From Glycomyces luteolus (GTDB taxonomy: Bacteria > Actinomycetota > Actinomycetes > Mycobacteriales > Micromonosporaceae): a stretch of DNA of 64,000 nt. The stretch lies in contig NZ_JAPZVP010000006.1 of assembly GCF_027622875.1 (NCBI RefSeq), positions 179,261 through 243,260 of the forward strand, in the 5' to 3' direction. The translations under genes were made by a program, and so were the position numbers. Positions within the stretch are counted from its first letter, which is position 1; each line of letters begins with the position of its first letter. The notes below the pieces were generated by a model. It was given only the letters and a program-made list of their open reading frames with translations, was not told where the DNA came from and ran no database searches. Shown here piece after piece: positions 39,320 through 58,079 of the stretch.

Positions 39320-41281
39320 TCAGTGTAGCTCAGCGGTGACCAGTATTCGGACAACGGCGGCAGTCCAGGCGGCGCATTTCGCGGTGTCGTCCCCGCCGGC
39401 CAACGATTTGGACAGGTGCACGAAATCGCTTGCGGCCCTTTGCAGTCCGACCCGCTGGAGTTCGGCGGCGGTGGCGTCCACGCGGCGCCGGGACGGCTCG
39501 CGGGCGCCCCGCAGGCCCTGGTGCGCGAGATCGGCGCATGCGGTGAGCGCGCCCTCGATCGCGGCGGCGACCGGGTCGGTTTCGGCCGCCGCGTCGACGG
39601 CCGCCAGCTCGGCCGTGTCGTCCCCCGGCGCGAAGTCGGGGATCACGGGGCCGTCCTCGGTGAGGAGCGCGGTGGGCTCGACGATGAGCTCGCCGCGGTG
39701 GCGGTGCACGTGACCGGCGACGCCGATGACCCCTTTGAGCAGGGCCTGCTCGGCCGCTTCAAGGGCGCCGGGTGCAGCGCCGCGATGGGGGACGCGAAGG
39801 ATCGCGGTGCCGCCCTTGGGGGCGCTGATGCGGGCTTCGAGGCACTGCGAGGCGGGATCGTAGCCGAGGAGCCGGGCCTCCTCGACGGCGATGACGCGCA
39901 GGGATTCGGCGGCCACGCGCGGGCGCACGAGTGCGGGCGGGCGGGCGGCGAGTTCCTCGGCCAGGGCGTCGAGGTCGGTGGTGCGGAGCGAGTCCGGGAG
40001 GTCGTTCCAGGCCAGGCCCAGCGGCAGGACCTGGGTTTTGGCGAGTCGGCCGGTGCCGAGTCTGAGCGCGCGGGCCGCCGTGCGCGAGGCGGCCTCGGTG
40101 ACGGTGTTCCCGGAGGCCAGAGCGCCGATCTTGCATCCGGCGAGGCGGCGCGAGGCGAGCTCTGATCCGGTGGGGCCGCCGTTCTCCGCGACGGGCCAGT
40201 CGCGCTGGACCGCGAGGACCATGCCGGTCTCGGGCTGCGCGAGGTAGATCTCGAGGGTGCGCGTGTCGCCTTCGGTGCCGACGCGGGCGCCGAGGCCGGT
40301 GAGGCGCACGAGGGTGAGCGGGGTGGCGTCGGCTTCCTCGCTGCCGAGAACCTGGGCGGTCGGGGTGCCTTCACGGTGTCTGGCGGCGCGGGCTCGGGCG
40401 GGGAGTTCGGCAAGGAGGACGGCGAGCCGCTGCGGGTCGTACGCGGCTGAGCGTTCCTCGTAGCGTTCGAGCTGGTCGATGAGGTCGTCGACCGCTCCGG
40501 CGGGCCAGTGGGCGCGGCGGCGGGTGAGGGCTTGGGACTCGCGTTGGAGCGCGGCGCGGAGGACGCCGTCGGCACCGACCGCGCCGTCGAGGAGGACGCG
40601 TTCGGCGAGGGTGAGGGCCTGGTCCAGGGCGGCGCCGAGGGCGGCGTCGAGGCCGTCGGTGGCGACAGCGCCGCCGACGCTGACGGTGATCGCGTCCGGT
40701 TCGGCGTCTCGGAAGGCCCAGACGGCGAGGACGATAGCGGCGTCGCGGGCGGGGCCGGTGGCGTCGGTGTGGACGTAGCCGAGGCCGGGGACGAGGAACT
40801 TCACTGTCGCCGCGGGGAGTTCGGCCGCGGCTGGCCGGTCGGGGCCGGGCCAGGTGAGGCGGGCGGTGTATCCGGCGCGGCGGGTCTGCTCGGCGGCTTT
40901 GAGGGCGTGGTGGCCGAGGGTGCCGCGGAGCTCCTCGTCGGTGATGGCGGCGGGGCTGGCGACCGGTTCGGTTGCTGCCGGAGCCGTTTCGGGCGCCGCT
41001 TGTGCGCGCTGGTAGGCGAGGACGGCGCCGACGCGGTGGCGGCACTTGCCGGAGGCGCCGCAGGTGCAGGTGGAGGCTTCGAGGCCGCCCGCGGCCGGGA
41101 GCGCGGTCTCTGCGCCGTCGGGGAAGACGGCGGTGAGGGTGCCGTCCTCGGCGAGCGTGACGGTGGGGGCCGTCCCGGCGTCGAGGTCCTTGGCGGCGCG
41201 TTTGACGAGGCCGCGGTTGGCAAGGGCCGCAAGGGCGTCGGGGGTGAGGGCGAGGAGGTCGTGCCTGGGTTCCGCGGTCAC
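39320..41281 (-). CDS. SWIM zinc-finger protein (YehQ-like)
   Basis: A 653-residue protein whose SWIM finger CxCx5CxH is seen at C72, C74, C80 and H82 (STCTCGASGKCRHRVG). The remainder is a long Ala/Arg-rich region without catalytic motifs I can identify. SWIM domains bind DNA or protein. In E. coli a SWIM protein (YehQ) closes the yehL-yehM-yehP-yehQ locus, the same order of families as here. GTG at 41281 overlaps the VWA stop by 4 bases (GTGA), so it is translationally coupled; the frame is open upstream but that part is a shadow. It is the last gene of the cassette. Confidence 0.85.
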   Translation of the reverse strand: MTAEPRHDLLALTPDALAALANRGLVKRAAKDLDAGTAPTVTLAEDGTLTAVFPDGAETALPAAGGLEASTCTCGASGKCRHRVGAVLAYQRAQAAPETAPAATEPVASPAAITDEELRGTLGHHALKAAEQTRRAGYTARLTWPGPDRPAAAELPAATVKFLVPGLGYVHTDATGPARDAAIVLAVWAFRDAEPDAITVSVGGAVATDGLDAALGAALDQALTLAERVLLDGAVGADGVLRAALQRESQALTRRRAHWPAGAVDDLIDQLERYEERSAAYDPQRLAVLLAELPARARAARHREGTPTAQVLGSEEADATPLTLVRLTGLGARVGTEGDTRTLEIYLAQPETGMVLAVQRDWPVAENGGPTGSELASRRLAGCKIGALASGNTVTEAASRTAARALRLGTGRLAKTQVLPLGLAWNDLPDSLRTTDLDALAEELAARPPALVRPRVAAESLRVIAVEEARLLGYDPASQCLEARISAPKGGTAILRVPHRGAAPGALEAAEQALLKGVIGVAGHVHRHRGELIVEPTALLTEDGPVIPDFAPGDDTAELAAVDAAAETDPVAAAIEGALTACADLAHQGLRGAREPSRRRVDATAAELQRVGLQRAASDFVHLSKSLAGGDDTAKCAAWTAAVVRILVTAELH

Positions 41282-42438
41282 GTGCCGAGCCTTTCCGCAA
41301 CGAATTCGACCAGGTGGGAGGGGGTCATGGCGCCGACGTGGGCGCCGGCCTTGGTGAGGCGGGCGGCCATGTGGCGGTCGAAGATCGGGTTCGCGTCCTC
41401 GTCGAGGGCGGCGAGGCCGAGCACCTGGGTGCCCTGATCGCAGAGCTGCTTGACGAGGTGGACGAGCCGGGCTTCGCTGCCGCCTTCGTAGAAGTCGCTG
41501 ATGAGGGCCACGATGGAGCGGCGCGGGTTCTCGATGAGTCCGGCGCCGTACTCGACGGCTCGGGCGATGTCGGTGCCGCCGCCGAGCTGGACCTTCATGA
41601 GCAGTTCGACCGGGTCGTCCACATCGGAGGTCATGTCGACCACGGCGGTGTCGAACGCGATCAGGTGGGTCTTGAGGCCGGGGAGGGCGTGCAGGCATGC
41701 GGCGGTGACGGCCGAGTGGATCACCGAGCCGGTCATGGACCCGGACTGGTCGACGAGCAGCACGAGCTGCCACTGCTCCAGGCGTTTGGAAGTGCGCGAA
41801 TGGAACTGCGGGCGTTCGATGGCGACGCGCCGCTCCTCGGGCTGGTAGTGCTTGAGGTTGGCGCGCAGCGTGCGTTTGAGGTCGAAGTCGCGGGAGCGGC
41901 GGTGGAAGCTGGGTTTGCGGGTGCGGCTGCCGGTGAAGACGGTGCGCACCTGCACGGAGAGCTTCTCGACGAGGCGCTGCACGACCTCTTCGACGATGCG
42001 GCGGGCGGCGGCGAGCACCTGCGGGTTCATGAGGTGCTTGGTGCGCAGGACGGCCTTGAGGAGGGCCGGGCTCGGCTCGATGCGCTCCAGCACATCGGGA
42101 TTGGTGAGCACGTCGCTGATCTCGTAGCGTTCGATCGCGTCGCGTTCGAGCCGTTCGATGGTCTCCTTGGGGAAGAGCCGGTGAATGCCGTCGAGCCAGT
42201 CCACGGTGGTGAGCTGCGACGGCGAGTCGTCCGCGCCGCGCTGGCCGTCCCGGTCGCCTCGTGCCCCGCCGCGTCGGACGCCGCGCTTGCCGAGGTCGTC
42301 GTCGCGGCTGTAGAGCCAGTCGAGGGCGGCGTCGCGCCCGGCGTTCTCGGCGCTGAGGCCGCCGGTGCAGCTCTCGGCGGCGGGCCCGAGGATGAGCCGC
42401 CAGCGTTGCAGGTCGGCTCCGTTGTGCTCGTCCCCCAT
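41278..42438 (-). CDS. VWA (CoxE-like) domain protein (YehP-like)
   Basis: A 386-residue protein. A helical N-terminal half includes LFPKETIERLERDAIERYEI. The von Willebrand A domain carries a complete MIDAS: D230-x-S232-x-S234 in LVDQSGSMTGS, the Thr in GGGTDIARA, and Asp in LISDFYEGG. VWA proteins next to MoxR ATPases usually act as the metal-binding partner in chaperone-like remodelling of a client complex. A basic segment (KPSFHRRSRDFDLKRTLR) lies before the VWA domain. It overlaps the DUF5682 gene by one base and the SWIM gene by four. Confidence 0.9.
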   Translation of the reverse strand: MGDEHNGADLQRWRLILGPAAESCTGGLSAENAGRDAALDWLYSRDDDLGKRGVRRGGARGDRDGQRGADDSPSQLTTVDWLDGIHRLFPKETIERLERDAIERYEISDVLTNPDVLERIEPSPALLKAVLRTKHLMNPQVLAAARRIVEEVVQRLVEKLSVQVRTVFTGSRTRKPSFHRRSRDFDLKRTLRANLKHYQPEERRVAIERPQFHSRTSKRLEQWQLVLLVDQSGSMTGSVIHSAVTAACLHALPGLKTHLIAFDTAVVDMTSDVDDPVELLMKVQLGGGTDIARAVEYGAGLIENPRRSIVALISDFYEGGSEARLVHLVKQLCDQGTQVLGLAALDEDANPIFDRHMAARLTKAGAHVGAMTPSHLVEFVAERLGT

Positions 42439-44720
42439 CAGGACTCCCCTCCGAATACGAGGTCTTCGCGGGCGAGGGCGGCCTCGACGCGGGCTTCGAG
42501 TGCCATCGCGGCGGCCATCACGACCGGGTCGACGGCGAGTTTGCGGGTGAGGCTGCGGGCGTCGCCGCCGCCTCGGACCGCTACGAGGCGTTCGGCGATG
42601 AGGCCGCGCTCACGCGGCGGGAACATCGCGAACGCCTGCCGCAGGGCCGGCAGGGCGATGAGGAACTCGTCCTCGCTGAGGTCGGCCACCAGTTCATCCA
42701 CAGCGGACACGACACCCTGCTCCTCGGCGAGGACCTCTTCGCGGGCGACGGCGAAGAGCCCGGCGAGCCAGTCGCCGAGGCGGTCGGGGTCGGCCGCGCC
42801 CGCGGCGGCTTCGGCGGCGTTCGCGGGCGCGCCGAGCGCCCAGGCGAGGCCGAGGGCCGCGCCGCGCAGGTCGGGCGGGGCCTGGCCGTCGATCGCGATC
42901 CTTTGGGCCGCAGCGGCGACCGAGGCGGCCGGGGGCGTGAGGCCCGGGGCGTGGCGCACGGCGTCGCGCAGGGCGCGCATCGCGCGGAGGCGTCCGTGGT
43001 CGGCAGGGCCGGGCCCGGCGTGCAGGCCTTCGGCGAGCCACAGGAGGCGGTTCGCGCACGCGGTGACGACGGCGGCGTAGAGGTCGCTCCCGGCGGTGCC
43101 GAAGAGGTGGTCGTGGCGCCACAGCGCGAGCACGGTGGCGAGTGCGGGTCCGACCTCGCCGAGGTTGCCGCTGTCGTCCACAGCGGATTCGACGGCGGCG
43201 CCGAGGCGGTCGGTGAGGTGCGCGCGGCCGCACAGGGCGGCGTCGAACAGCATGGCGGCCAAGGCGTCGAGCGCGGTCTCGGCGTCGGCGCGCTGCTCGA
43301 GAACGGTCTGGGCGGCGTCGCCGAGGGTGGCGCCGAGCGCTCCGGACTCGATGAGCACTGGGAGCCGGTCGGCCCTCGAGTCGAGCGTCCAGTGCTCATG
43401 GGCTTGGACGTCCGCTCCCGCCGTGGGACCCTCGTCGCGCTTCACTCCGGGGAGGCGCAGGAGCCGCATGCAGTGGAGGACGCGGCTGCGTTCGAGGTCT
43501 TTGGGTTTGGCGAGGTCGAGGCGGAGCGGTCCGTCGCCGTCGAGGCGGAGGCGGGCCATCTCGGCTTCGGCGTCGTCCACGAGCGGAGGCCGGGGCGTGT
43601 CCGGGTGGAGGCGGCCGACCCGCTCGCCGGTGAGGGCCGCGGTCATCTCGACCACGACCGGATGCGTTCCGGCCGTGAGCAGTCCGCGGCGGGTCCACGG
43701 GAGCGGCTGCTCGAGGTCGTCGCTGATGAGGGCGCTGGCGAGGCCGTCGAGGAGGTCGGTGCGGCCGGGCCGTTCGTGGCCGCGCAGGCGCGCGAGGCCC
43801 TCGGTGAGGCTGCGTGCGCCGATGAGGTCCGAAGTGGAGACGTGCAGGCCGCGGAGGCGCAGGCGGGTGGTGATGCGCTGCACGAGCGTGGCCGCCGCCT
43901 CCTCGGGCCCGGCTTCCCAGAGGCGCTGGTAGTACTCGGGCGAGGGCATCCCGGACTGGTATCCGGCGAAGGCGTCGAGGCGCTTGAAGGAGTAGGGCAC
44001 GAGGTAGCCGCCGGTCTCGGTGCCTTCGGGGGGTTCGGGCAGCGGAGGAGGGGCGGCGTCCTCGTTCTCGGTGGCGGCGAGCGCGACGAGGCGGCGCAGC
44101 GCGGGAGCGTGGAAGCCGCCGCAGACGACGAGCACGGGACCGTCGGTCGCCGCCAGCGTCGCGTGGATCCACTGGGCCATGAAGGCTTCGCGGGCGGTGT
44201 CCACATCGGCGGTCTCGGCCTCGCCGCGCACGAGGTCGAAGTACCGGTCGAGCCGGTCGGCGAGCCCTTCAGGGTCGGCGACCTCGACGAGGTGGTCCCA
44301 GAGTGCGTCCACATTGTCCACGGCGAAGGCGCGGCAGAGCCGGTCGGTGGCCTCGGTGTAGCGGCGCTCGGCGTCCGAGTACCGGTTCTCGACGCCGTCG
44401 AAGGCCTGGTGCCAGGCGGGAAGGTCGATGAAGCGGACCTCCGCCCCGGCGCGGCGGCCCTCGGCGAGCGCGACCCACTCGGGCGAGTAGTCGCACATCG
44501 GCGCCCAAGTGCGGCGCACCGCGAGGTCGGTGCTCGCGTACGAGTAGATCGCCACGGGCAGTTCGTGTTCGAGGGCGAGTTCGCCGAGGCGGTCGTTGAA
44601 GTCCGCCGGGCCCTCGATGAGCACGGCGGCGGGCCGCAGCTCCTCGATCCGCTCGGCGACGAGGCGGGCGCAGGCGGGCGAGTGGTGCCGCACGCCCTGG
44701 ACGTGGAGGCGCTCGATCAT
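42438..44720 (-). CDS. DUF5682-family protein (YehM-like)
   Basis: A 760-residue cytoplasmic protein of unknown biochemical role. The N-terminal third has conserved stretches with polar residues: VQGVRHHSPACARLV, VLIEGPADFNDRLGEL, and later VLVVCGGFHAPALRRLV, as in DUF5682. These look like an alpha/beta fold with possible active-site His, Asp and Glu. The C-terminal half is helical and Ala-rich. DUF5682 proteins are regularly encoded between a MoxR ATPase and a VWA protein. ATG at 44720 overlaps the MoxR stop (ATGA); the open frame extends to 45692 as a shadow of the MoxR gene. Confidence 0.8.
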   Translation of the reverse strand: MIERLHVQGVRHHSPACARLVAERIEELRPAAVLIEGPADFNDRLGELALEHELPVAIYSYASTDLAVRRTWAPMCDYSPEWVALAEGRRAGAEVRFIDLPAWHQAFDGVENRYSDAERRYTEATDRLCRAFAVDNVDALWDHLVEVADPEGLADRLDRYFDLVRGEAETADVDTAREAFMAQWIHATLAATDGPVLVVCGGFHAPALRRLVALAATENEDAAPPPLPEPPEGTETGGYLVPYSFKRLDAFAGYQSGMPSPEYYQRLWEAGPEEAAATLVQRITTRLRLRGLHVSTSDLIGARSLTEGLARLRGHERPGRTDLLDGLASALISDDLEQPLPWTRRGLLTAGTHPVVVEMTAALTGERVGRLHPDTPRPPLVDDAEAEMARLRLDGDGPLRLDLAKPKDLERSRVLHCMRLLRLPGVKRDEGPTAGADVQAHEHWTLDSRADRLPVLIESGALGATLGDAAQTVLEQRADAETALDALAAMLFDAALCGRAHLTDRLGAAVESAVDDSGNLGEVGPALATVLALWRHDHLFGTAGSDLYAAVVTACANRLLWLAEGLHAGPGPADHGRLRAMRALRDAVRHAPGLTPPAASVAAAAQRIAIDGQAPPDLRGAALGLAWALGAPANAAEAAAGAADPDRLGDWLAGLFAVAREEVLAEEQGVVSAVDELVADLSEDEFLIALPALRQAFAMFPPRERGLIAERLVAVRGGGDARSLTRKLAVDPVVMAAAMALEARVEAALAREDLVFGGES

Positions 44721-45808
44721 CCCGGCAGCAGGTTCCGCGCCTGGTAGAGCGATTCCCAGTGCGGGCCTTTGCGTTTGGGGGCCTTCTGCTCGAGGTAGCG
44801 GCGCAGGCGCGCGAGGTCCTCCGCGTTGTCCTTGGCGGCGGCCCCGGCCATGCAGTCCACGATGTCCCCGGCGACGGCGGTGCCGCCGCGCAGGTACCAG
44901 GCCTTGATGCCCACGGCGTGGGCGACGGAGACGGCTTCGGCGGTCGACATGACCGCCTGAGGGCGGCCGGAGTTCGCGTCGCCGGTGCGGAGGTCGCGGA
45001 AGACCCGCACGAGCACTTCGAGCACGTCCCGCGACGGGGGCGCGGGCACGCCCGAGCGGGAGAGGGCAGCGGCGGCCTCGGTCTCGACCAGGTCGAGCTC
45101 GGTCTTGAAGTCGGCGATGGGGAAGACCGTCTCGAAGTTGAAGCGGCGCTTGAGGGCCGCGCTCATCTCGTTCACTCCGCGGTCGCGGGTGTTGGCGGTG
45201 GCGATGATGTTGAAGCCCTCGCGGGCGAACACCATCGAGTCGCCGTCGAGCTCCGGGATGGCGAGCACGCGGTCGGACAGGGGCGAGAGCAGCGAGTCCT
45301 GGACTTCGAGGGGGCAGCGGGTGATCTCCTCGAAGCGCACGACCCGGCCCTCGGACATGCCGCGCAGCAGGGGCGCGGGCACGAGCGCGCGTTCGGTCGG
45401 CCCCTCGGAGACCAGCAGGGAGTAGTTCCAGGAGTAGGCGATCTGGTCTTCCGTGGTGGACGCTCCACCTTGGATGGTGAGGGTGGAGTCGCCGGAGACG
45501 GCGGCCGCGATGAGCTCGGACAGCAGCGATTTCGCGGTGCCGGGCTCCCCCACGAGCATGAGGCCGCGGTTGGTGGCGAGCGTGACGAGCGCCCGGTCGA
45601 TGAGCGAGGGGTCGCCCACGAACTTGCGGCTGATGCCGCGCGATTCGTCGCCCACGATGAAGGTGCGGGCGGCCTGGAGGCTGAGGGCCCACCCGGGCGG
45701 GCGGGGCGACTCGTCCTCGGCGGCGAGCTTCTCGAGCTCGGAGGCGTAGCGGCGCTCGGCGGGCGGGCGTTGGAGTTTCGGCTCTGCTGGGAGTGCGGTG
45801 GCGGTCAT
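44717..45808 (-). CDS. MoxR-family AAA+ ATPase (YehL-like)
   Basis: A 363-residue AAA+ protein. Walker A is GEPGTAKS (87-94), Walker B VVRFEEI (156-162), and sensor 1 is NIIATANTRDRGVNEMS. The arginine-finger region KRRFNFETVFPIADF follows. The MoxR family (here probably the YehL subfamily) forms hexamers that work with VWA proteins to assemble or activate client proteins. Its gene follows the short DUF4132 gene after 13 bases and overlaps the DUF5682 gene, so all five genes to 39320 are probably one transcript. Confidence 0.92.
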   Translation of the reverse strand: MTATALPAEPKLQRPPAERRYASELEKLAAEDESPRPPGWALSLQAARTFIVGDESRGISRKFVGDPSLIDRALVTLATNRGLMLVGEPGTAKSLLSELIAAAVSGDSTLTIQGGASTTEDQIAYSWNYSLLVSEGPTERALVPAPLLRGMSEGRVVRFEEITRCPLEVQDSLLSPLSDRVLAIPELDGDSMVFAREGFNIIATANTRDRGVNEMSAALKRRFNFETVFPIADFKTELDLVETEAAAALSRSGVPAPPSRDVLEVLVRVFRDLRTGDANSGRPQAVMSTAEAVSVAHAVGIKAWYLRGGTAVAGDIVDCMAGAAAKDNAEDLARLRRYLEQKAPKRKGPHWESLYQARNLLPG

Positions 45809-45821
45809 GGCGGCTTTCTGC

Positions 45822-47996
45822 TCAGTGGTGGATGCCGGTGGCGCGGCCGAGTCCGGCGAGGATCTCGGCGACGAGGACGGGGTCGAGGGCGTCGCCGCGC
45901 AGCGTCGGGACGCCGCGGCGGCGGTTCTTGGTGGGCGAGAACCAGATCCAGAGGATCCGGTGGCGGCCTTCGGGATCGGGGTCGTCGTAGTCGGGGCTGG
46001 GGTCGATCTCGGCGAGGAGGTGGGCGTTGTAGACGATAGCGGCGCTCTCGGCGTTCAGCGCCGCGCGCGGGAGGTCGCGGGCGAACAGGTAGGTGAACGG
46101 CCTGGAGGCCCAGTCGGGCAGCTCGTCCCAGTGGAGCCGCTTCCAGTCCAGCACCTCGTTCAGAGCGCCGAACGCGGCGGTCGCACCGGAGAACCGGTCG
46201 AGGACGCCGGTGCGGGCCTCCTCCGGCGTGAGGGTGAGCGCCGGGCGGGCGAGCTGGTCGAAGGGCTGCAGGATCTCGTAGTCGGCGAAGATCTCGGTCC
46301 AGAGCGGCAGGTCGGGGCCGAGCAGTACGGGGTGCGCGAGGCGGACGCGGGCGCCGTCGAGGAGCTGGAGCGGTTTGTCGTCGACGGCGGCGAAGCTGCC
46401 GTCCTCGGCGAGGCGGAAGCCTTGGGGCCCAGCGGCGGTCTCGCCGATCCAGAGGAGTCCGCGGGCGAGGGAGGCGAGCACCGGGTGCGCGGTGAGGTGC
46501 GCGAACTCGTCGGCCGCCCAGACGCGACTGTGGAGCATCGCGTCCTTGAGGCGGTCGCTCTGGAAGGCGAGCTCGGCGGTGAGGTCCTTGGAGAGCTTGC
46601 GAAAGCGGGCGATCGAGGCCTTGGCGGTCTCGGCGTCGTCGCGGACTCCGGGGCGGGGCACGCGCGCGCGGCGCTTTCCCGCGGCGTCGGTGACGCTCAG
46701 CTTGAGCCGTTCGTCGGCCTTGATGTGGAAGACGCGCGACCCGAAGTCGAGCGTGAGCCGAGCGGGGTCGTCGAGGCCGAGCGCACGCGCGTCCCGGTCC
46801 GCCAGCGATTCCACTTCGGACCCGATCCGGGCGGCGACCTTGGCGGCGTGGGAGGTGGCGAGCTCCCGCACCGATTCGTGCTGCTTGCCTCGGGAGAGGC
46901 GGTACAGCGCCGGGAACGCGAGCTCGGCGGGGAATGCCGGAAGGGTCTCCAGTGCCATGGCGGTCCCGTCGAGATAGCGGGCGCTTGATGCCGCCGACCA
47001 CCCCTCGACCAGCGCGGCGGCCTCGGCCCCGCCGAAACGGGCGAGCTGGCCGACCGACCAGTCCGCATAGCCGTAGTGGTTCACCAGCGCGAGCGAGAAG
47101 CGGGCGAGCGATTCGCGGTCGCAGGCCTCGGCGACGGTCTCGACGGCGGGGTACGGCGTGCGGGGGGACCACTGCGAGAGGACGGCGATGAGGTGCGAGA
47201 CGGCGGTGGACGGCAGGAGCGCGGAGCGGTCGGCGGTGAGCACCGGAGGGAGCGGCTCGCCGATGTCGGGGGAGCCCGCGTTGGGGTTGTTGAGGAGCGG
47301 CCGGTCGGGGTAGTCGGCGAGCACTGCGGTGACGCCCGCGACCGCTTCGGGCCCATGGGTTTCAGCGCCTTCGATGACGGCCTCGGGGCCGTAGCGCCAG
47401 GCGAGGAGTCGCAGCGCGCCTCGTGCGGTGGTGCGCTGGTAGCCCTTGGGGCCGAAGGCCTCCGGGACGAGTAGGGGTACGGCGTGGAGGCCGTGGCGGT
47501 CGAACCAGTCGAGGCCGGGGCCGCGTCCGGCGTCGAGGCGGAGAAACCAGTGCGCGGCGAGGGCGGCGGCCGGGGTGCTGCGGATCGGGAGGAGGGCGCG
47601 GCCGGCCCAGGGGGAGTCGCGGAGCACTTCGACGGCTTCGTCGGCGATCGACGGGCCTCGGCGGGCGAGCTGCGAGAGGACGCTCTCGGCGAGTTTCCAG
47701 CCGTAGGAGTAGCTGATGCCGACCTGCTGGTCCCAGTAGGTGTCCGGGTCCCATTCGACCAGGTCGGGTTCGATGGCCATGGCGCGCTCGAACTCGTCGC
47801 CGCGCCCGACGATCTGCGGTGCGGGGGTTTCGAGCCCGGGGATCTCGCGGGGCGGGCGGCTCCGGCGCGGCTCGGCCCAGGGCGGGGAGACGAGCACCTT
47901 CGGGAGGTCCGCAAGCGCCGCCTCGGGGAGGCCGAGCGGCGGCGACTCGATCGTCACGTCGAGTTGCTTTTCTTGTGGCGCAAGGTGATCGGGCAT
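45822..47996 (-). CDS. DUF4132 protein, short paralogue lacking most of the N-terminal region
   Basis: A 724-residue member of the DUF4132 (MolR/YehI-like) family, about 370 residues shorter than its three neighbours. The first 12 residues (MPDHLAPQEKQL) match the start of the paralogue at 58079 (MTDHVAPQEDQL). It then jumps to the region that lies near residue 394 in that protein (LPKVLVSPPW against LPPLLVAPPW). The middle and C-terminal parts are collinear with the others: RYGPEAV repeats, DFGSRVF, and the invariant DYEILQPF near 590. The C-terminus after about 620 differs strongly. No catalytic motif is known for the family. It has its own promoter-like motif and precedes the MoxR gene by 13 bases. 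Confidence 0.88.
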   Translation of the reverse strand: MPDHLAPQEKQLDVTIESPPLGLPEAALADLPKVLVSPPWAEPRRSRPPREIPGLETPAPQIVGRGDEFERAMAIEPDLVEWDPDTYWDQQVGISYSYGWKLAESVLSQLARRGPSIADEAVEVLRDSPWAGRALLPIRSTPAAALAAHWFLRLDAGRGPGLDWFDRHGLHAVPLLVPEAFGPKGYQRTTARGALRLLAWRYGPEAVIEGAETHGPEAVAGVTAVLADYPDRPLLNNPNAGSPDIGEPLPPVLTADRSALLPSTAVSHLIAVLSQWSPRTPYPAVETVAEACDRESLARFSLALVNHYGYADWSVGQLARFGGAEAAALVEGWSAASSARYLDGTAMALETLPAFPAELAFPALYRLSRGKQHESVRELATSHAAKVAARIGSEVESLADRDARALGLDDPARLTLDFGSRVFHIKADERLKLSVTDAAGKRRARVPRPGVRDDAETAKASIARFRKLSKDLTAELAFQSDRLKDAMLHSRVWAADEFAHLTAHPVLASLARGLLWIGETAAGPQGFRLAEDGSFAAVDDKPLQLLDGARVRLAHPVLLGPDLPLWTEIFADYEILQPFDQLARPALTLTPEEARTGVLDRFSGATAAFGALNEVLDWKRLHWDELPDWASRPFTYLFARDLPRAALNAESAAIVYNAHLLAEIDPSPDYDDPDPEGRHRILWIWFSPTKNRRRGVPTLRGDALDPVLVAEILAGLGRATGIHH

Positions 47997-48029
47997 GTCC
48001 GGCTTTCGGGAGGCGGCTTCGTTCTGGAG

Positions 48030-48052: not shown

Positions 48053-48053
48053 G

Positions 48054-51100: not shown

Positions 51101-51420
51101 GCGTCGAACACGGGGCGGAATTTCGTCGAGCCGTAGTCGAGCTTGGTGAGCCGCAAGGCGACCGCCGCACCCAGGACGTCGGCTGCCCCGTCGAGGAAGG
51201 CCGAGCAGGCGACGGCGAACTCGTCGTCGGGTTTCACGAGCCTGAACGATCGGAGCCGGTCGGCGTGCTCGCCGAGGAGGGCGCGACCGGCTTCGGGGTC
51301 GCGCTTGATCTTTCGCGGCTTGGCGGCGCCGCGGCGGGGCTGCACGAAGCGCTGCCAGGTTTCGGGGAAGGCGGGTCGGTCCTCGTCGGGCAGTGCTACC
51401 GCGATGACGTCACTGGCCAC
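48103..51420 (-). CDS. DUF4132 domain protein, full-length paralogue
   Basis: A 1105-residue protein. The first 400 residues are helical with HEAT-like features and include the family start pattern LP-x2-W near PETWQRF and the DPEA motif. The middle part has LLAMPPWTTG, then a long repeat-like region (HGPDTVREAAVQYGDEAAAAI). The C-terminal DUF4132 region has DYGQRRFKVGFDEALKPFV, RTWTPAEFEEHF, and ADYEILQPFPQLGRPVMAFTEEE. A final beta-rich part includes VLGLDPGIWVGAI. The start is GTG with GGAG upstream and overlaps the previous gene by 11 bases, showing translational coupling. No enzymatic function is assigned; E. coli relatives are MolR and YehI. Confidence 0.9.
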   Translation of the reverse strand: MASDVIAVALPDEDRPAFPETWQRFVQPRRGAAKPRKIKRDPEAGRALLGEHADRLRSFRLVKPDDEFAVACSAFLDGAADVLGAAVALRLTKLDYGSTKFRPVFDALAADHGLPFAAAALAEAFALDQEKNGQKFGLNRRPLAKSGWAHLYDNTEVRQIRALIAAAADYEAVVAALAERRTSPELRLAVSVLVPDEEAWLNEVCEEHRSLAPNASYSVLFLALATTEQQLDTVEIDASAFYWLPASEIADLVHRLGVAALPVIEGRLNGYVDANDRKILYRALAALPSERAMTLLLDRLDAADAMGFAMEAAANFPRRALELIARRVPGADDDQRKQLSALLHSDPILLDTALPLMDADTRSAVASLTADLQRVPEAPSDAVPPLLAMPPWTTGAAASEPVVVKGLEPAPINRMVWAEGEYEAWSNAQHHGFARYSKGDWDRTRWESEAGEFDARHVSDQAVLLALAPRAIAADLLPHWRPEHHYFSTAILQRIAANLGADAAPQLLSATSYDMEQRRLLLVPVANLAAARYAADALARLKTMRPFALAWLDRHRADAAALLVPDALGKAKKLRAAAEVALRYLASTHGPDTVREAAVQYGDEAAAAIKALVDIDPLMPVGVQIPQAGAWASPMTLPQVLLNGRERALPNAAVRNLVTVLALGTPEYHYPGVAVVAETCDRISLARFSLALFEQWITAGAPSEDGWALTQLAHFADDEAVRLLQPLVAKWPGESQHQRAVKGLKALGAIGTEAALRAINQIAEKAKFAAIKAEAREQIETIAANLGLTADQLGDRLVPDFGLREESALVLDYGQRRFKVGFDEALKPFVSDMDGKPRKSLPKPAAKDDELLADAAYKRFAALRKDLRTVAADQVKRLERAMVQGRTWTPAEFEEHFVRHPLVWHLARRLVWTAETDGTRTTFRLAEDKGCTDVEENEYTLPANAAVRLAHPAIMGDEVEAWAEILADYEILQPFPQLGRPVMAFTEEELRTGRLTRFEGITVPVGRLLGLTSKGWERSSPMDAGIEAGMSCVMHGAGYLVLGLDPGIWVGAIDQCPDQTLRTVVLSRQSLDGWSVPRPKAGFGPVDPVVASETLAALARATDLS

Positions 51421-54400
51421 TTTGCACTCCGTTCAGGCTGGTGAGGGCGCCCAGGATCTCCGAGGCGGTAACCGGGTCGATTTCAGTGGAGAGGCCTCCG
51501 CCCGCGCTTCGCCAGTTCGGCCGCCAGTACTCCAGGCGGTCGGAGAGGAAGATCCCGTCGAGGCGCTGGATCGGGTTCTCGGCGATCATGCCGACCCAGA
51601 TGCCCGGGTCGAGCGCGATGGTGACGTAGCCGCCTCCGGGGATCGGGTAGTAGATGCCGGGTTCGACCCCGGCGTCCTCGGGCGCGGCACGGTGCCAGCC
51701 GCGCTTGGTGAGCGCCAGGAGGCGGCCGATCTCGACGTCGGCGCCGTCGAAGCGGGCCAGGTGCCCGGAGGCGAGTTCCTCATCGGTGAACGCCATGACG
51801 GGACGCGAGAGCTGCTCGAAGGGCTGCAGGATCTCGTAGTCGGACAAGACCTCCGCCCAGGCGTCGATCTCCTTGGGCTCCAAGTGGACCGGGTGCGCGA
51901 GCCGGATCACGGCGTCGTCCGGGAGCGCCACCGACTCGTCGTTCACGTCGCTGTAGGTGCCGTCCTCCGCGATGCGGAACCCGGTGTCGCCGGCCAGCCA
52001 GACCAGCCTGCGCGCCAAGTGCTTGACGAGCGGGTGCGCCGCGAAGAACCGTTCGAACTCCTCGACGGACCAGGTGCGGGAGTCCGCCATGGCCGCTTCG
52101 AGCCGGGAGACCTGGTCGGCGGCGGCGGTGCGCAGTTCCTTCTTCAGCAGCGCGAACCGCTGGTATGCGGCTTCGGCGAGCTCGGCGTCGTCCTTCGCGC
52201 CCGGCTTCGGCAGCGCCTTGCGGGGTTTCCCGGTGTCGTCGGTGACGTACGGGCGCAACTGCTCGTCGAAGGCCACCGTGAATCGGCGCGGACCGTAGTC
52301 GAGCACCAGCGGCTCCGCGCCGAGCCCGAAGTCGGGGACGAGGCGGTCGGCCAGCTGCGCGGAGCTCAGGCCGAGCCCGGCGGCGATCAGTCCGATCTGG
52401 ACACCTGCTTCGGCCTTGAGCGCCTTGAACTTCACCTTCTCAGAGATGCCTTGGATGGCCCGCAGCGCCGTCTCGGAGCCGATCGCGCCCAGCACGCCGA
52501 GACCGTTGACCGCCCGTTTGTGATGGCTCTGACCGGGCCATTGGCGGACCTTCGCGGCGAGCAGCCGCACCGTGGCGTCATCGGCGAAGTGGGCCAGCTG
52601 GGTCAGGGCCCAGGCGTCCTTCGACGGCGCGCCCTCCGCCAGCCACAGCTGGAACAGCGCCCTGCTGAAGCGGGTCAGCGAGCCCCGGTCGCAGGTCTCG
52701 GCGACCACTTCGAGGCCCGGGTACGGATAGTCGGGAGTGGCCAGCGCGAGCACGGTGATCAAGTGCGGCAGCGACGATGACGGCAGCGCCCGTTCGCCGT
52801 CCGCAAGGAGGACCTGCGGCAGCTGCGCCGGGTCGATCCAGGATCCGGGCTTCGGGACTTTCACGCCCGGTTCGAGCGGGTCGCCGTCGAGGAGCGCGGC
52901 GATCGCGGCCGCGGCTTCCGGACCGTACGCTTCGGCGGCGCGGAGGACCGCGTCGGGGCCGTGGCGCAGCGCCAGGAACACCAGGGCGTTCTCGGCGAGC
53001 CGACGCGCTTTCTTGTCCTCCCCCAAGGCGTCCGGGACGAGCATGCGGGCGCCTTCGGTGCCGTGCCGGTCGAACCAGGCGATCGCGCTGGCCCGGGCGG
53101 TCTTGAGGCGGTCGAGCCAGTCGGCGGCGAGCCGGGCGGCCGCGAGGCTGTGGATCGGCGGCAGGGTCGCGTGCTCGATCGGATCGTTCCGCAGCGACTC
53201 CACCAGGCGGGCCGCGGCCGGGGTGCCGAAGCGGGCGAGGATGGTCTTGCCGTAGTCCGTGGTGTACGGGGGGATGCCGCCGGTCCATCGGTCGAAGGCC
53301 TTGGCGGCGATCGCATCGGGCGCGTGGACGAGGAGGTCGCAGTTCATCCGGCCGTGGTCGCGATTCCCGAGGCTGCGCAGCCGGTGCTCCCATTCCCCGT
53401 CGGTGAGGCGGCTGTGATAGCTCTCCGCGGGGACCGCCCAGCGCTCCTGTTCGCCTTCGGCCCAGACGATCCGGGTCTCGGCGGGCGCTTGGAGGCCCGC
53501 GATGACGGCTGCTTTGCGCTTGGGGCGCTTCTGCGTCCACGGCGGCGTGGTAAGCAGTGGAGGGAGGGCTTCGGGCGGGGCCTCCGGCGCTTGCGCGGTG
53601 TCGACGTTCGCTGTGTCGCGGAGTGCTTCTGGGACGACAGCCGCGAGGGCGGCGAGGCGGGGCCGCAGTTCGGGTGGGGTCGTCTCGGCTGCGGCGGCGA
53701 TCGCGCGGAGTGCGCGGCGGGGGAAGCGGGCGGCCGCGTCGGCCGCCGCCGGGAAGACCTGCGGTTCGATGAGGTTGCCGACGAGGTGGGCCATGGCCTC
53801 GTCGCTCGGGAGGACGGCGATGCCGTCGAGGAGCCACCGCCGCCGGTCCGGGTCGTGCTCGTTGCGGAGGGTTGCGAGCAGGTGCGGGAGCGCGGCGGTG
53901 CCGAGGTTGTCGACGGCCGCGGCGATGAGTTTCGGGCTGGTCCAGTAGGGGTCGAGTCGGGAGAGTTTGACGCCGGCGAGCAGCTCGGGCCGGTCGATGA
54001 CGTACCAGAGGAACGCGTCGAATTCGAACGAGCTCGCGCTGCGGTGCTCAGCGCAGATCTCCGCGGCCCAGGTCTCCTGTTCAGGGAAGAGCGCGGTGGC
54101 CACGAAGCGCTGCACGGGGGTGGTCCGGAAGGTCGCGGCCCCGGCGAGCGCCTGGTCGTATTCGGTTTCGGAGGCGGCGGCGAGCAGGCCCCGCACGACG
54201 CCGATGCCGTCGGGGATCTCCTGGACGATCCGGCTGAGGTTCGCGACGGTGCCGTCGCTGATCTGTCGGTCCGCGATGTTGTGGACGCGGGTGCGGTAGT
54301 CGGTGGCCCAGGGGTTGAGCGAGAGCTTGGCGATGGCGGCGCAGACCGCGAACGGCAACCCGTGCTCGATCGTCCAGGCGTCGACTTCGGGGCGCAGGAG

Positions 54401-54700
54401 TTGCCCGGACCCGTGCTTTTCAGTGCTCAGCAGGGCGGCCGTGGCCCCTGCGCCGTACGCGTCCGCCTCGCCGTCGAGGTGGCGCAGGATCGAGGGGGCG
54501 ACGGCCTGGTTGAGGGGGTTGGCCATCGCCGCGCGGAGGTCCTTCTCGTAGCGCGCGGTGCGCACGCGGAGCGTGTTCGGCGCTTCGGGGTCGAGCGTGA
54601 CGGGTTCGCCGATCCGCTTGCCGCGCTTGGGCAGCAGGTAGCCGGACCAGCTTTCGGGGAGCTCGAGTCCGTCTTCTCGGGGTGCGGGTGTCGCTGTCAT
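51410..54700 (-). CDS. DUF4132 domain protein, full-length paralogue
   Basis: A 1096-residue protein, collinear with the paralogues before and after it. Landmarks are LELPESWSGYLLPKRGKR at the N-terminus, LPPLLTTPPWTQKRPKRKA near 390, and LDYGPRRFTVAFDEQLRPYV near 830. Also present are RTWSVEEFERFFAAHPLVKHLARRLVWLAG and SDYEILQPFEQLSRPVMAF. Near the end VTIALDPGIWVGMI matches the neighbour. Residues 1-390 look like helical HEAT-type repeats. It ends 11 bases inside the next gene. A promoter-like TATGCT lies 36 bases before the ATG. Function unknown. Confidence 0.9.
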   Translation of the reverse strand: MTATPAPREDGLELPESWSGYLLPKRGKRIGEPVTLDPEAPNTLRVRTARYEKDLRAAMANPLNQAVAPSILRHLDGEADAYGAGATAALLSTEKHGSGQLLRPEVDAWTIEHGLPFAVCAAIAKLSLNPWATDYRTRVHNIADRQISDGTVANLSRIVQEIPDGIGVVRGLLAAASETEYDQALAGAATFRTTPVQRFVATALFPEQETWAAEICAEHRSASSFEFDAFLWYVIDRPELLAGVKLSRLDPYWTSPKLIAAAVDNLGTAALPHLLATLRNEHDPDRRRWLLDGIAVLPSDEAMAHLVGNLIEPQVFPAAADAAARFPRRALRAIAAAAETTPPELRPRLAALAAVVPEALRDTANVDTAQAPEAPPEALPPLLTTPPWTQKRPKRKAAVIAGLQAPAETRIVWAEGEQERWAVPAESYHSRLTDGEWEHRLRSLGNRDHGRMNCDLLVHAPDAIAAKAFDRWTGGIPPYTTDYGKTILARFGTPAAARLVESLRNDPIEHATLPPIHSLAAARLAADWLDRLKTARASAIAWFDRHGTEGARMLVPDALGEDKKARRLAENALVFLALRHGPDAVLRAAEAYGPEAAAAIAALLDGDPLEPGVKVPKPGSWIDPAQLPQVLLADGERALPSSSLPHLITVLALATPDYPYPGLEVVAETCDRGSLTRFSRALFQLWLAEGAPSKDAWALTQLAHFADDATVRLLAAKVRQWPGQSHHKRAVNGLGVLGAIGSETALRAIQGISEKVKFKALKAEAGVQIGLIAAGLGLSSAQLADRLVPDFGLGAEPLVLDYGPRRFTVAFDEQLRPYVTDDTGKPRKALPKPGAKDDAELAEAAYQRFALLKKELRTAAADQVSRLEAAMADSRTWSVEEFERFFAAHPLVKHLARRLVWLAGDTGFRIAEDGTYSDVNDESVALPDDAVIRLAHPVHLEPKEIDAWAEVLSDYEILQPFEQLSRPVMAFTDEELASGHLARFDGADVEIGRLLALTKRGWHRAAPEDAGVEPGIYYPIPGGGYVTIALDPGIWVGMIAENPIQRLDGIFLSDRLEYWRPNWRSAGGGLSTEIDPVTASEILGALTSLNGVQSGQ

Positions 54701-54736
54701 CGGGGTCCTTCAGAGGGCTGGAGGGGTGCCGCCCCG

Positions 54737-54759
54737 AGCATAGGGCCCGGGGACGGCGC
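54737..54759 (-). promoter_or_regulatory. Weaker copy of the DUF4132 promoter-like motif
   Basis: TATGCT (54737-54742 on the minus strand) lies 36 bases before the ATG at 54700. At the same 6-base distance upstream is an 11-mer that matches GTGTCGCACCG at 6 of 11 positions. Confidence 0.35.
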
Positions 54760-54782
54760 TCCCTCGTGTCGGTCGGTTCGGT

Positions 54783-57700
54783 TCAGGCGCTGGTGAGTCG
54801 GGAGAGCGCGGCGAGGATCTCGGAGGCGGCGACCGCGTCGATGTTCTTGGGCGGCACCGGTACCGGGTCGCCGTGCCACGGATAGGCCTCTGCGCTGACG
54901 AGATGGACGCCGCGCACGGTCTGCTGCGGGTACTCGGCCGGGTAGCCGACGGCGATGCCGGGTTCGACTGCGACGGTGGCGAAGCCGCCGCCCGGCAGGG
55001 CGAAGGCGAGCCCGGGGCACATGCCGCCGGTACGGGGTTCGGCGCGTCGCCAGCCGCGGCGGGTCATGCCGAGGAGGCGTCCGACCTCCACTGTGGCCCC
55101 TTCGAAGCGCTCAAGGCGGCCGGTCGCCAGGTCGTCCTCGGTGAACGCGAAGACGGGCCGGGCGAGCTGCGGGAACGGCTGCAGGATCTCGTAATCGGCG
55201 AAAAGCTCGGCCCAGTCGGCGAGCCGGTGCCCAAGATGGACGGCATGCGCCAATCGCACGGTCGCGTCGTCGGCGAGCGTGAACGCCTCGTCGTCGGCGT
55301 CGCTGAACGAACCGTCCTCGGCGATGCGGAACCCGGCGTCCCCGGCCAGCCACACGAGGCGGCGCGCGAGGTGCCCGGTGAGCGGGTGCTCGGCGAAGTA
55401 CCGCCGGAACTCCGCGGCACTCCAGGCGCGGCCGTCGACCATCGCGGCTTCGAGCCGCGACACCTGCTCGGCCGCGACGGCCTTCAACTCCCGCTTCAGC
55501 GCCGTGAAGCGCGCGTACGCGTCGTCGGCGACGCCCGGGGCGTCCTTGGCGCCGGGCTTCGGGAGGCTCTTGCGCGGCTTTCCGGACTCATCGATCACGA
55601 ACGGCCGCAAGTGCTCGTCGAAGGCCACGGTGAAGGCGCGCGTCCCGTAGTCGAGCACGATCGTGGCCTTGTCGCCGAGCCCGAAGTCGGGGACGAGCCG
55701 GTCCGACAACTGCTCCTGGTCGAGGCCGAGCTCCCCCGCGATCGCCTCGATCTGGCGGGTGGCCTCCGCCTTGAGCGCCTTGAACTTCACCTTGTCGGCG
55801 ATCTGCTTGACCGCGCGCAGCGCCTCCTCAGTGCCGATCGCGCCGAGTACCTCGAGCCCGGCGACGGCGCGCCGGTGCTGGCCTTCGCCGGGCCAGTCCC
55901 GGATGCGCGGCGCGAGCGTCCACACGGTCGCGTCGTCGGCGAAATGGATGAGCTGCGTCAGCGCCCAGGAGTCCTTCGCCGGTGCGCCGATCGCCGTCCA
56001 CCGGTCGAACAGGGCCCGGCTGAACCGGGCGAGTGAGGCGCGGTCGCAGGCTTCGGCGACCACCACGACCCCGGCGTAGTCGTACTCCGGAGTGCCCAGG
56101 GCCAGCACGGTGATCAAGTGCGGGATCGACTCGGCGGGCAGCGCGCGCTCGCCGTCTTTGAGGAGCACCTGCGGCAGGATCAGCGGTGAGACCCAGTTCC
56201 CGGGCTGGGGGACCTTGACGCGCGGGATCACTGGGTCGGCCTCGAGCAGGGCCGTGATCGCCTCGGCCGCTTCGGCTCCGTATTCGGCGGCCCCGGCCGT
56301 GACGGCTCCGCTGGCGTAGAGCGAGGCGAGGTGGGCCAGCGCGAACTCGGCATACCGGCGCAGCCGCTTGTCGGTTCCCAGGGCGTCGGGCACCAGGTAC
56401 GGCACCGCGGCGAGCCCGTGGCGCCGGAACCACCCGACCGCGCTGGGACGGGCCGATCTGAGCCGCTCCAGCCGTTCGGCCGCGATGCGGGCGGCGGTCA
56501 GGTTCAGGATCGGCCCGGGAAGCGCATCGCAGCGGTGGTCGGCGGCGGGGACCTTGAGCACCCGGTCGATCACGCGATCGCCGTAGCGGGCCAGGACGCG
56601 CAGGAGGTCCTCCGACCAGGAGGCGTCCGCCTCGCCCTGCCAGCGCTCCAGGAGCGCCTCGGCCCGTTCGGGGGTCGCGTACGCGAGGCCGTGGGCGAAC
56701 TGCCAGGGCTCGAGGTCCCGCGCATCGATCCAGACCGGGTCCTCGATCCAGAGCTCCAGGGTCCGATTCCACCGGTCCTGCTCGGCTTCGGTCCACGCCA
56801 CGTGCGATTCGGCGGGCGGCTCGAGGCCTTCGATGACGACCGGCTTCGCCTTGGGCCGCTTGCGGGTCCACGGCGGGGCGACCAGCAGCGGCGGCAGGTC
56901 CTCGGGTGCGGCGGACGGCACGCGGCCGTCGCCGGTGAGCAGGTCGGCGAGGACCGACCGGTCCGCTTCGCTCACATGGACGTGCAGCGCCGGGTCGATG
57001 CGGTTCACGACGGCGGCGGTCCAGAGGCGCACGTCGGCGTTCGCGGTCGGGGCGAGCCGCGCGGCGGCGCGGAGGGCGCGGACGGGGAAGCGGGCGGCGG
57101 CCTCGGTCGCCGCCTCCCAGACGTTCGGCGAGTCGAGGTGCGCGAACACGAACGCCGTGGCGTCGTCGAGTGGTATCAGGGCGATCGCCCGGTAGAGCTG
57201 CTTTCGGAAGTCGTCGTTGTAGTAGTGGCGGGCTTTGTGGGTCTCGAGGAGGACGGGCAGTGCGTCGGTGCCGAGCCCGCCGAGCAGGACCGCGAGGGTG
57301 TCGACGTCGGCGATGCAGCCGTCGATCTCGGTGATGCCCGCGGCGGCCAGGTGCTCGGGGCGGCTGGCGGCGTGCGCGACGACCAGGTCGGCCGAGGCCC
57401 AGTGCCGGGCCTTCCCGTAGTCGGCGCAGGCTTCGAGAACCCAATCGGTCTCAGTGGGGAGCAGGAGCATGGCGGCGATGCGCTTCGGGGCCGTGTCGCG
57501 GTGCGCGGCGACCGCCGCGACGGCTTCGGCGTACTCCTCGTCCGACGCGGCGGCCAGGGTCGACCGCACCGCGGCGATCCCGCCGTGGGCCAGTTCGTGG
57601 TCGCAGGTCTCGGGATGCTCGACCTCGTGCTCCTTGGCGATGCGGTGCCCGCTGACGGCACCGCCGTAGTACCCGTCGGTGACCGGGGCGAGGGCGAGTC

Positions 57701-58079
57701 GCTCGACGGCCGCGGCCACGGCGAAGGCCAGGCCGTGCTCCTGCAGCCAGCAGGCGAACTCCGGGTACAGCATCGAGGTGTGGGCGCGGCGGTCGTAGTC
57801 GAGGATCAGCGTCGCGACCGCGGCGGCGCCGCGCGGATCGGGCTTCCCTTCGAGGTAGGCCTCCGCGTCCGCGGCGTACGGCGCGTTGCCGCCGGTCGCC
57901 AGTGCGGCCCGGATCGTCGCCTCGCGGGCCGTGATCAGCTCGCGGTGCCGGACGAGCGCTTCGGGGTCGGCGGGCGCGGCCGGGTTCCCGGCGCGCCTGC
58001 CGCGCCACGGCAGCGGCTTGGCGTTCCAGGCCGCCGGCAGTACCAGCTGGTCTTCTTGGGGGGCAACGTGATCGGTCAT
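54783..58079 (-). CDS. DUF4132 domain protein, first gene of the paralogue array
   Basis: A 1098-residue protein that starts MTDHVAPQEDQLVLPAAW. Landmarks are DLPPLLVAPPWTRKRPKAK (about 394-412) and LDYGTRAFTVAFDEHLRPFV. The C-terminal region contains RAWSAAEFRRYFAEHPLTGHLARRL and ADYEILQPFPQLARPVFAF. The first 390 residues are helical and repeat-like. I chose the ATG at 58079; the frame stays open to 59306 across ctaB, but that part has shadow composition. It follows a terminator and a motif with an inverted repeat, so it is probably the first gene of the array. No function is known for the family. Confidence 0.9.
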   Translation of the reverse strand: MTDHVAPQEDQLVLPAAWNAKPLPWRGRRAGNPAAPADPEALVRHRELITAREATIRAALATGGNAPYAADAEAYLEGKPDPRGAAAVATLILDYDRRAHTSMLYPEFACWLQEHGLAFAVAAAVERLALAPVTDGYYGGAVSGHRIAKEHEVEHPETCDHELAHGGIAAVRSTLAAASDEEYAEAVAAVAAHRDTAPKRIAAMLLLPTETDWVLEACADYGKARHWASADLVVAHAASRPEHLAAAGITEIDGCIADVDTLAVLLGGLGTDALPVLLETHKARHYYNDDFRKQLYRAIALIPLDDATAFVFAHLDSPNVWEAATEAAARFPVRALRAAARLAPTANADVRLWTAAVVNRIDPALHVHVSEADRSVLADLLTGDGRVPSAAPEDLPPLLVAPPWTRKRPKAKPVVIEGLEPPAESHVAWTEAEQDRWNRTLELWIEDPVWIDARDLEPWQFAHGLAYATPERAEALLERWQGEADASWSEDLLRVLARYGDRVIDRVLKVPAADHRCDALPGPILNLTAARIAAERLERLRSARPSAVGWFRRHGLAAVPYLVPDALGTDKRLRRYAEFALAHLASLYASGAVTAGAAEYGAEAAEAITALLEADPVIPRVKVPQPGNWVSPLILPQVLLKDGERALPAESIPHLITVLALGTPEYDYAGVVVVAEACDRASLARFSRALFDRWTAIGAPAKDSWALTQLIHFADDATVWTLAPRIRDWPGEGQHRRAVAGLEVLGAIGTEEALRAVKQIADKVKFKALKAEATRQIEAIAGELGLDQEQLSDRLVPDFGLGDKATIVLDYGTRAFTVAFDEHLRPFVIDESGKPRKSLPKPGAKDAPGVADDAYARFTALKRELKAVAAEQVSRLEAAMVDGRAWSAAEFRRYFAEHPLTGHLARRLVWLAGDAGFRIAEDGSFSDADDEAFTLADDATVRLAHAVHLGHRLADWAELFADYEILQPFPQLARPVFAFTEDDLATGRLERFEGATVEVGRLLGMTRRGWRRAEPRTGGMCPGLAFALPGGGFATVAVEPGIAVGYPAEYPQQTVRGVHLVSAEAYPWHGDPVPVPPKNIDAVAASEILAALSRLTSA

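Follow-up and report, generated by a model that had tools for sequence, protein, structure and literature searches.

A conserved, uncharacterised MoxR-VWA machine with an expanded DUF4132 array in Glycomyces luteolus

What kind of system places four DUF4132 proteins beside a MoxR ATPase? The question is raised by a stretch of 64,000 nucleotides from Glycomyces luteolus (contig NZ_JAPZVP010000006.1, positions 179,261 to 243,260; hereafter the window, to which all coordinates refer), in which eight genes, all on the minus strand at 39320-58079, encode four DUF4132 proteins (D1-D4), a MoxR ATPase, a DUF5682 protein, a VWA protein and a SWIM zinc-finger protein. Gene starts were refined after open reading frame (ORF) calling. 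The locus is a real, conserved and uncharacterised multi-component machine, of which the window holds an expanded member; new in its description are a TIKI-like fold assigned to DUF5682, a solenoid slot with exchangeable occupants and a gradient of evolutionary rates.

Composition and conservation of the cassette

D1 (1098 amino acids, 54783..58079), D2 (1096, 51410..54700), D3 (1105, 48103..51420) and the short MoxR-adjacent D4 (724, 45822..47996) match Pfam with E-values of 1.9e-56 (PF13569), 9.1e-59, 2.4e-60 and 9.3e-43, respectively, D2 and D3 being confirmed also by a genome match, and their DUF4132 domains lie at 55050-55583, 51695-52231, 48373-48918 and 46149-46679. D4 is without approximately the first 350-390 residues of D1-D3, and the MoxR-adjacent copies of the related loci L091 and L092 are likewise short; in several other Glycomyces this copy is full-length, unlike D4. 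Next comes the YehL-type AAA+ ATPase MoxR (363 amino acids, 44717..45808; AAA_5, E 3.4e-35), with the Walker A motif GEPGTAKS at 45527-45550 and a sub-threshold bpMoxR match (22 vs 27 bits). The YehM-type DUF5682 protein (760 amino acids, 42438..44720; PF18934, E 6.3e-108) has its best named match in Glycomyces sp. YM15 (94%). The YehP/CoxE-type VWA protein (386 amino acids, 41278..42438; VWA_CoxE, E 1e-55) shows a complete metal ion-dependent adhesion site (MIDAS), with DQSGS, GGGTD and SDF all present and the DxSxS element at 41737-41751. The YehQ-type SWIM protein (653 amino acids, 39320..41281) matches Pfam weakly (E 0.0035; 17.3 bits, below the 19.6 cut-off), and its C-x-C-x5-C-x-H motif is intact (CTCGASGKCRH, 41036-41068). 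The last five genes are coupled: a 13-base gap separates D4 from MoxR, and the MoxR/DUF5682, DUF5682/VWA and VWA/SWIM genes overlap by 4, 1 and 4 bases; D2 and D3 overlap too, by 11 bases. Pfam at loose E-values gave no useful hidden domains in the cassette proteins, and no WGR domain in the window DUF4132 proteins.

The same families, in the same order and on one strand, make up the E. coli K-12 locus molR(yehF-yehH)-yehI-yehL-yehM-yehP-yehQ, in which yehF encodes a WGR domain and yehH is a DUF4132 pseudogene; the last five of the eight genes correspond in order to yehI-L-M-P-Q. Identity to the K-12 proteins is 63.6% for MoxR-YehL, 57.3% for VWA-YehP, 38.9% for DUF5682-YehM and 32.0% for SWIM-YehQ (across 563 columns), and the DUF4132 proteins are 30-34% identical to YehI over the C-terminal part. 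DUF4132 genes are in tandem there as well, and an E. coli strain with intact molR has two, MolR and YehI. The E. coli locus differs in having two DUF4132 genes instead of the four of the window, a WGR domain on MolR, the small yehK between yehI and yehL, and a LexA-like box upstream. Composition, coupling and the yeh correspondence had all been proposed by the sequence-only reading; ORFs, Pfam, motifs and YehQ identity agree with the first, the gap and overlaps are exact, and gene order and protein-by-protein identity to K-12 confirm the third.

Of 5426 E. coli genomes, 5162 contain yehLMPQ and 5177 contain yehI at 80% coverage (~95% in either case), and 4682 have the molR-yehI pair. Records with 90-95% identity are commoner for yehI (2054/5285) than for the cassette (924/5303), and therefore the DUF4132 gene is more variable, though not patchy. 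Within one sub-branch of ST131, 184 isolates have a DUF4132 region interrupted by a transposon (PMC9334617), and a copper-evolution study (PMC12409786) lists yehM among its mutated genes, a weak clue. A literature search, mostly without subscription papers, found no paper on the cassette and no function for the E. coli machine, which is no proof of novelty; in the same literature DUF4132 is named in three papers, and the names DUF5682 and DUF5691 were absent.

The conservation was followed in 80 named loci, the best 80 of 527 confirmed DUF5682 relatives obtained with a DUF5682 alignment against genome contigs, all actinobacterial by their titles. In 76 of them DUF4132, MoxR, DUF5682, VWA and SWIM are found on one strand in that order, although in two of the 76 (Actinomadura L105 and L134) 5-8 kb of other sequence separate the nearest found DUF4132 from MoxR. 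The four exceptions are L099 and L157, truncated at contig ends, and L125 and L137, without DUF4132 within 10 kb upstream by profile. The Walker A pattern is present in all 80 MoxR proteins, with the GXXXTAKS variant in 74; near-complete VWA proteins show DxSGS in 76/79, GG[GS]T[DN] in 79/79 and SD[FLH] in 48/79, and all 78 near-complete SWIM proteins have the SWIM motif.

Among 61 relative genomes, including that of G. luteolus, DUF4132 was detected in all 23 with a Yeh-type DUF5682, as sorted by score and coverage, vs nine of the 38 others (Fisher p 8e-10, indicative only because the genomes are related). Some DUF5682 is found in 31 of the 32 DUF4132 genomes, and DUF4132 is absent from six of the 37 DUF5682 genomes. 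A sample of 149 genomes across the phylum contains 10 with DUF5682 and six with DUF4132 over the cut-off (seven at E 0.001), both families occurring in five and neither in 138 (Fisher p 2.6e-6); in those five, DUF4132 and DUF5682 are no more than 10 kb apart. The association of DUF4132 genes with the cassette, also anticipated from the window, is thus seen in 76/80 loci, in 23/23 Yeh-type DUF5682 genomes and in 5/6 DUF4132 genomes of the phylum sample. The cassette order is also kept on an Iodobacter plasmid, and 35 plasmid records, some chromosome-sized, contain a match. Viral carriage was rejected: none of the 36 viral contig stretches that matched the pattern encodes a relative, and the one phage record matched has 24.6% identity across 70% of the query.

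Constant core and exchangeable slot

Across the cassette variants, MoxR-DUF5682-VWA is the constant core, SWIM is nearly constant and the solenoid slot can be filled by different proteins. Sister cassettes have DUF5691, or the DUF4132 domain as a protein of its own, in place of DUF4132, and therefore MoxR-DUF5682-VWA is taken as the constant engine. Type B, found on Deinococcus and Hymenobacter plasmids in the order SWIM-DUF5691-MoxR-DUF5682-VWA, shares the four engine families of the window and differs in having DUF5691 instead of DUF4132 and SWIM upstream; in Hymenobacter, SWIM and DUF5691 are fused. Five actinobacterial loci are type B-like (L078, L079, L082, L083 and L088), with the DUF5691 part seen in four of them and, in L078, the SWIM part alone. 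The DUF5691 cassettes (L079, L082, L083, L088, L171 and L174) form a parallel, uncharacterised system with the same engine. Detectable homology between DUF4132 and DUF5691 was rejected (hhalign probability 0.4%, E 0.17, with a DUF5691 profile of four sequences only).

Type B2 (L081, L084 and L085) shows a large frame of 967-1717 amino acids without Pfam match before MoxR, and a CxCx5CxH frame beyond VWA. L177 and L178, type B2 loci with the same MoxR-DUF5682-VWA core, contain the DUF4132 domain as a short ORF of its own (292 and 377 amino acids between stops) that precedes MoxR by about 5 kb. In type C (L086, L087 and the beginning of L140), a divergent DUF5682 is next to MoxR, and VWA precedes MoxR in L086 and L087; in Salinispora, the type C MoxR-DUF5682 pair at L140:17-3123 is immediately followed by a complete Yeh-type cassette. 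Finally, two Rhizobiales plasmids show the DUF4132 gene between DUF5682 and VWA, with a WGR domain in the one scanned.

Modelled fold of DUF5682 and evolution of DUF4132

The AlphaFold2 model of DUF5682 (predicted local distance difference test, pLDDT, 88.2) has two parts. Residues 1-221 (44058..44720, minus strand) match the TIKI/EreA-type hydrolase fold with moderate scores, the parallel beta-sheet of the TIKI core being present, and the C-terminal half (residues 376-750, 42471..43595, minus strand) is modelled as a helical-repeat, HEAT-like solenoid. The N-terminal domain contains H12, H13, E36, E81, D99, E178 and H204, of which H12/H13, E36 and H204 are invariant. Compared without residue-level superposition, it resembles the TIKI/erythromycin esterase/ChaN/HopBA1 superfamily in the modelled fold, the His after strand 1, the Glu ending strand 2 and the His after the strand at 196-201, and it differs from that superfamily in its fusion to a HEAT-like solenoid, the co-encoded AAA+ engine, the absence of a Glu directly before the first His and the lack of a sequence-profile match. 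An hmmsearch of the DUF5682 alignment against PDB sequences gave only three chance-level matches and no significant profile similarity to a known TIKI, EreA or ChaN member. The His/Glu motif is readable also in three distant type C proteins. The fold and the invariant residues point to the N-terminal domain as a probable hydrolase, and the earlier suggestion that DUF5682 may be an effector gains plausibility from them.

The AlphaFold2 model of D1 (pLDDT 91.7) shows a HEAT-like solenoid at approximately residues 40-797; among its structural matches are chains of ATR, FANCI-FANCD2 and condensin, as a generic solenoid would also give. For the C-terminal DUF4132 domain (residues 805-1098) the VIA list contains no row, an absence that proves nothing. 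Column conservation in D1 is 0.36-0.42 in residues 1-300 vs 0.65-0.74 in residues 701-1000, with 0.41 at the extreme C-terminus.

Ratios of nonsynonymous to synonymous rates (dN/dS) were calculated by NG86 between the window and three relatives. D1 was excluded, as were two non-orthologous copies, the first of L092 and the second of L093, and the L093 N-half covers residues from about 358 only; at ~71% G+C the values are relative only. The ratios were 0.02-0.15 for MoxR, 0.13-0.36 for VWA, 0.15-0.29 for DUF5682 and 0.18-0.43 for SWIM. The highest were those of DUF4132, with 0.25-0.39 in the C-halves, 0.48-0.70 in the N-halves and 0.31-0.67 in the short D4, and the maximum in 100-codon windows of D2 and D3 (n=33) was 0.82. 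The gradient fits either a conserved engine-binding part plus a variable part for recognition, or a relaxation of constraint; positive selection is not shown. The sequence-only reading had cast the DUF4132 proteins as variable partners, which agrees with this gradient.

A tree of 61 DUF4132 rows places all 49 from Glycomyces in a single supported clade (100/100); the Lentzea copies, three from one genome, group together, the E. coli rows do likewise and the Actinomadura rows are not resolved into such a group. The Glycomyces, Lentzea and E. coli rows each cluster, and therefore the arrays arose separately in those lineages. Inside Glycomyces, a supported subclade of 12 rows includes D4 and consists of MoxR-adjacent copies in 11 of its rows, those of L077 and L098 falling outside, and D2 belongs to a supported cross-species group. 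Judged from these sequences, the Glycomyces copies appear as old paralogues with turnover. Twenty of the 22 genomes of the genus have one DUF5682 each, which appears split at contig ends in two of them, together with 1-12 DUF4132 matches; the other two have neither. The idea of the array as an oddity specific to the window was rejected, given that E. coli, Lentzea and Actinomadura carry DUF4132 arrays too. Two of the six DUF4132 copies of the G. luteolus genome are orphans on another contig (L008:6428-9682 and L009:3451-6603, on one strand and separated by ~8 kb), and the 30 kb examined contain no match to MoxR, DUF5682, VWA or SWIM.

Possible functions of the machine

We tentatively favour, as a possible function, that the AAA+/VWA machine gates or feeds a TIKI-fold hydrolase, with the DUF4132 proteins as interchangeable receptors, perhaps in stress or DNA-damage surveillance. 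By analogy with characterised MoxR-VWA pairs, and with the motifs intact here, MoxR would form an AAA+ ring and the VWA MIDAS would capture a partner peptide. ATP-driven remodelling would then gate or feed DUF5682, whose computed fold and invariant His-His...Glu...His set, joined to the HEAT-like solenoid, suggest hydrolase activity, most likely that of a peptidase or esterase on a bound target. The fast-evolving N-terminal solenoid of DUF4132 may recognise variable targets and its conserved C-terminal part may dock on the engine, roles suggested by the modelled solenoid and the rates; SWIM may provide a zinc-dependent nucleic-acid or protein contact. Going by the copy numbers, one engine in Glycomyces would serve several receptors, encoded by array and orphan genes.

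The likely setting, in which proteins or DNA are surveyed for damage or stress, is suggested by LexA/DdrO control and by WGR (DNA-binding-type) domains on some DUF4132 proteins. According to PMC11039860, molR (WGR-DUF4132) is listed among the LexA-regulated E. coli genes, and the LexA-like box AACTGGATAAAATTACAGGG, with 1 mismatch, is directly before yehF, one of 11 such sites on the plus strand of the 26-kb stretch. In Deinococcus, depletion of DdrO strongly induces DRA0166 (DUF4132) and DR2173 (WGR) (PMC8533742). One family, DUF4132, is thereby linked to DNA-damage regulons that were reported independently for LexA in E. coli and DdrO in Deinococcus. In actinobacteria such regulation was not found in the SOS-box survey: boxes occur in 18 of 417 regions (4.3%) vs 3.5% at random, no clear excess, where the regions are those upstream of each profile match starting near the profile start and not operon starts alone. 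The window itself contains seven LexA-type boxes at no more than 1 mismatch, none of them upstream of D1. Actinobacterial SOS control was therefore rejected.

The rival that survives best would make the locus a fifth MoxR-vWA conflict (anti-invader) class, with DUF4132 solenoids as sensors of phage products and DUF5682 as a toxic effector set free by the machine. Kaur et al. 2020 described four MoxR-vWA ternary conflict classes, VMAP, iSTAND, FtsH and beta-propeller (PMC7159879). The window shares with them the MoxR + VWA engine and, in GEPGTAKS, the GXXXTAKS P-loop of the FtsH and beta-propeller classes, to which the sub-threshold bpMoxR match may be added; DUF5682, with its TIKI-like and HEAT-like parts, stands in place of their third component, SWIM and DUF4132 are additional, and none of the four known third components was found by Pfam among the eight proteins. 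The terms 'yehL', 'SWIM' and 'WGR' occur 0 times in the text of PMC7159879. DUF4132 is fast-evolving and was amplified separately in Glycomyces, Lentzea and E. coli, as a conflict role would favour; as to the hypervariable or exchangeable effector domains of the Kaur et al. systems, the greatest variation here is that of DUF4132, but its dN/dS stays <1 throughout the 33 windows, and DUF5682 is constant.

The surroundings bear on the same rival. The Iodobacter plasmid cassette adjoins type I restriction-modification genes and transposases, in favour of a conflict role, but PADLOC 2.0.0 at E 0.01 matched none of nine proteins, the eight of the cassette and a NACHT-like neighbour. This neighbour (35780-37978, minus strand) adjoins the malic enzyme gene and has a weak NACHT-domain match (19.5 bits vs a 26.7 cut-off) and hydrophobic stretches. 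For the other loci, 97 of 307 called neighbours, hand-picked at no more than 900 amino acids from 39 of the 80 loci, with genes called by codon-position G+C, were scanned with PADLOC at 1e-8; matches were scattered, the most common of the 25 profiles listed, out of 31, was found in 4/97, and no recurrent defence partner was seen. The 25 Pfam families listed for these genes were mostly those of ordinary enzymes, and of the 40 largest flanking-ORF families (80 loci) most are limited to one genus, one spanning six loci in five genera. An ADP-ribosylglycohydrolase-like protein is encoded at L091:16702-17697 (minus strand); nine Glycomyces loci have a related frame close to the cassette, and the Pfam family of the protein is found in 3/97 neighbours. 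In the window, the genes beyond D1 encode a UbiA-family prenyltransferase, which we take to be ctaB, a transketolase and a transaldolase, and a malic enzyme gene follows beyond SWIM; the chromosomal setting is ordinary-looking.

The conflict reading is weakened because the cassette and yehI are present in ~95% of E. coli genomes (though the molR-yehI pair in only 4682 of 5426), no recurrent defence partner was seen in the sampled flanks and dN/dS is <1; presence is not patchy in Glycomyces either (20/22 genomes). We consider it doubtful. For the same reasons, together with copies placed in cross-species lineages, the earlier view that the DUF4132 array reflects diversity as in conflict systems was not upheld.

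As a second rival, the locus would encode a dedicated chaperone that matures a metalloenzyme or cofactor complex, with the DUF4132 proteins as assembly scaffolds or clients, like the MoxR-VWA chaperone pairs CoxD-CoxE and RavA-ViaA. We know of no DUF4132, DUF5682 or SWIM partners for these two pairs. The CoxE-type VWA and the UbiA-family gene beside the array fit such a role, as do the several studied MoxR-VWA pairs that mature complexes (PMC7159879) and the naming of molR for molybdate use, going by the title of a 1990 reference. We nevertheless judge it quite improbable, since a cofactor chaperone would not be expected to come with as many as 12 fast-evolving DUF4132 matches in a genome, the prenyltransferase-transketolase-transaldolase neighbours would rather resemble an ordinary local cluster, and moeA/moeB expression is unchanged on DdrO depletion in Deinococcus (PMC8533742). 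A DNA-repair or nucleoid-associated machine, in which WGR/SWIM bind damaged DNA and MoxR-VWA strips DUF4132-bound proteins from it, accords with WGR on MolR and one Rhizobiales DUF4132, the reported LexA and DdrO control, the SWIM motif in every near-complete SWIM protein and the solenoid matches to ATR, FANCI-FANCD2 and condensin that any generic solenoid would give, but with no Pfam WGR in the window DUF4132 proteins, no SOS-box excess in actinobacteria and a hydrolase-type DUF5682 left unexplained, it seems hardly likely.

A sharper form of the favoured gated-hydrolase reading, unlikely in all its details, is an undescribed surveillance machine in which a MoxR ring and a VWA/SWIM co-chaperone would drive a built-in TIKI-fold DUF5682 protease, and a repertoire of HEAT-solenoid receptors encoded across the genome (DUF4132, or DUF5691 in sister systems) would set the targets, plugging in via a conserved C-terminal domain. 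If true, these swappable receptors would resemble ubiquitin-ligase adaptors that diversify one degradation engine. The machine is carried by E. coli K-12 and kept in ~95% of complete E. coli genomes, and a hydrolase-like fold for YehM, a receptor-like solenoid for YehI/MolR and the scheme of one engine with many receptors would provide a testable model for these genes of unknown function.

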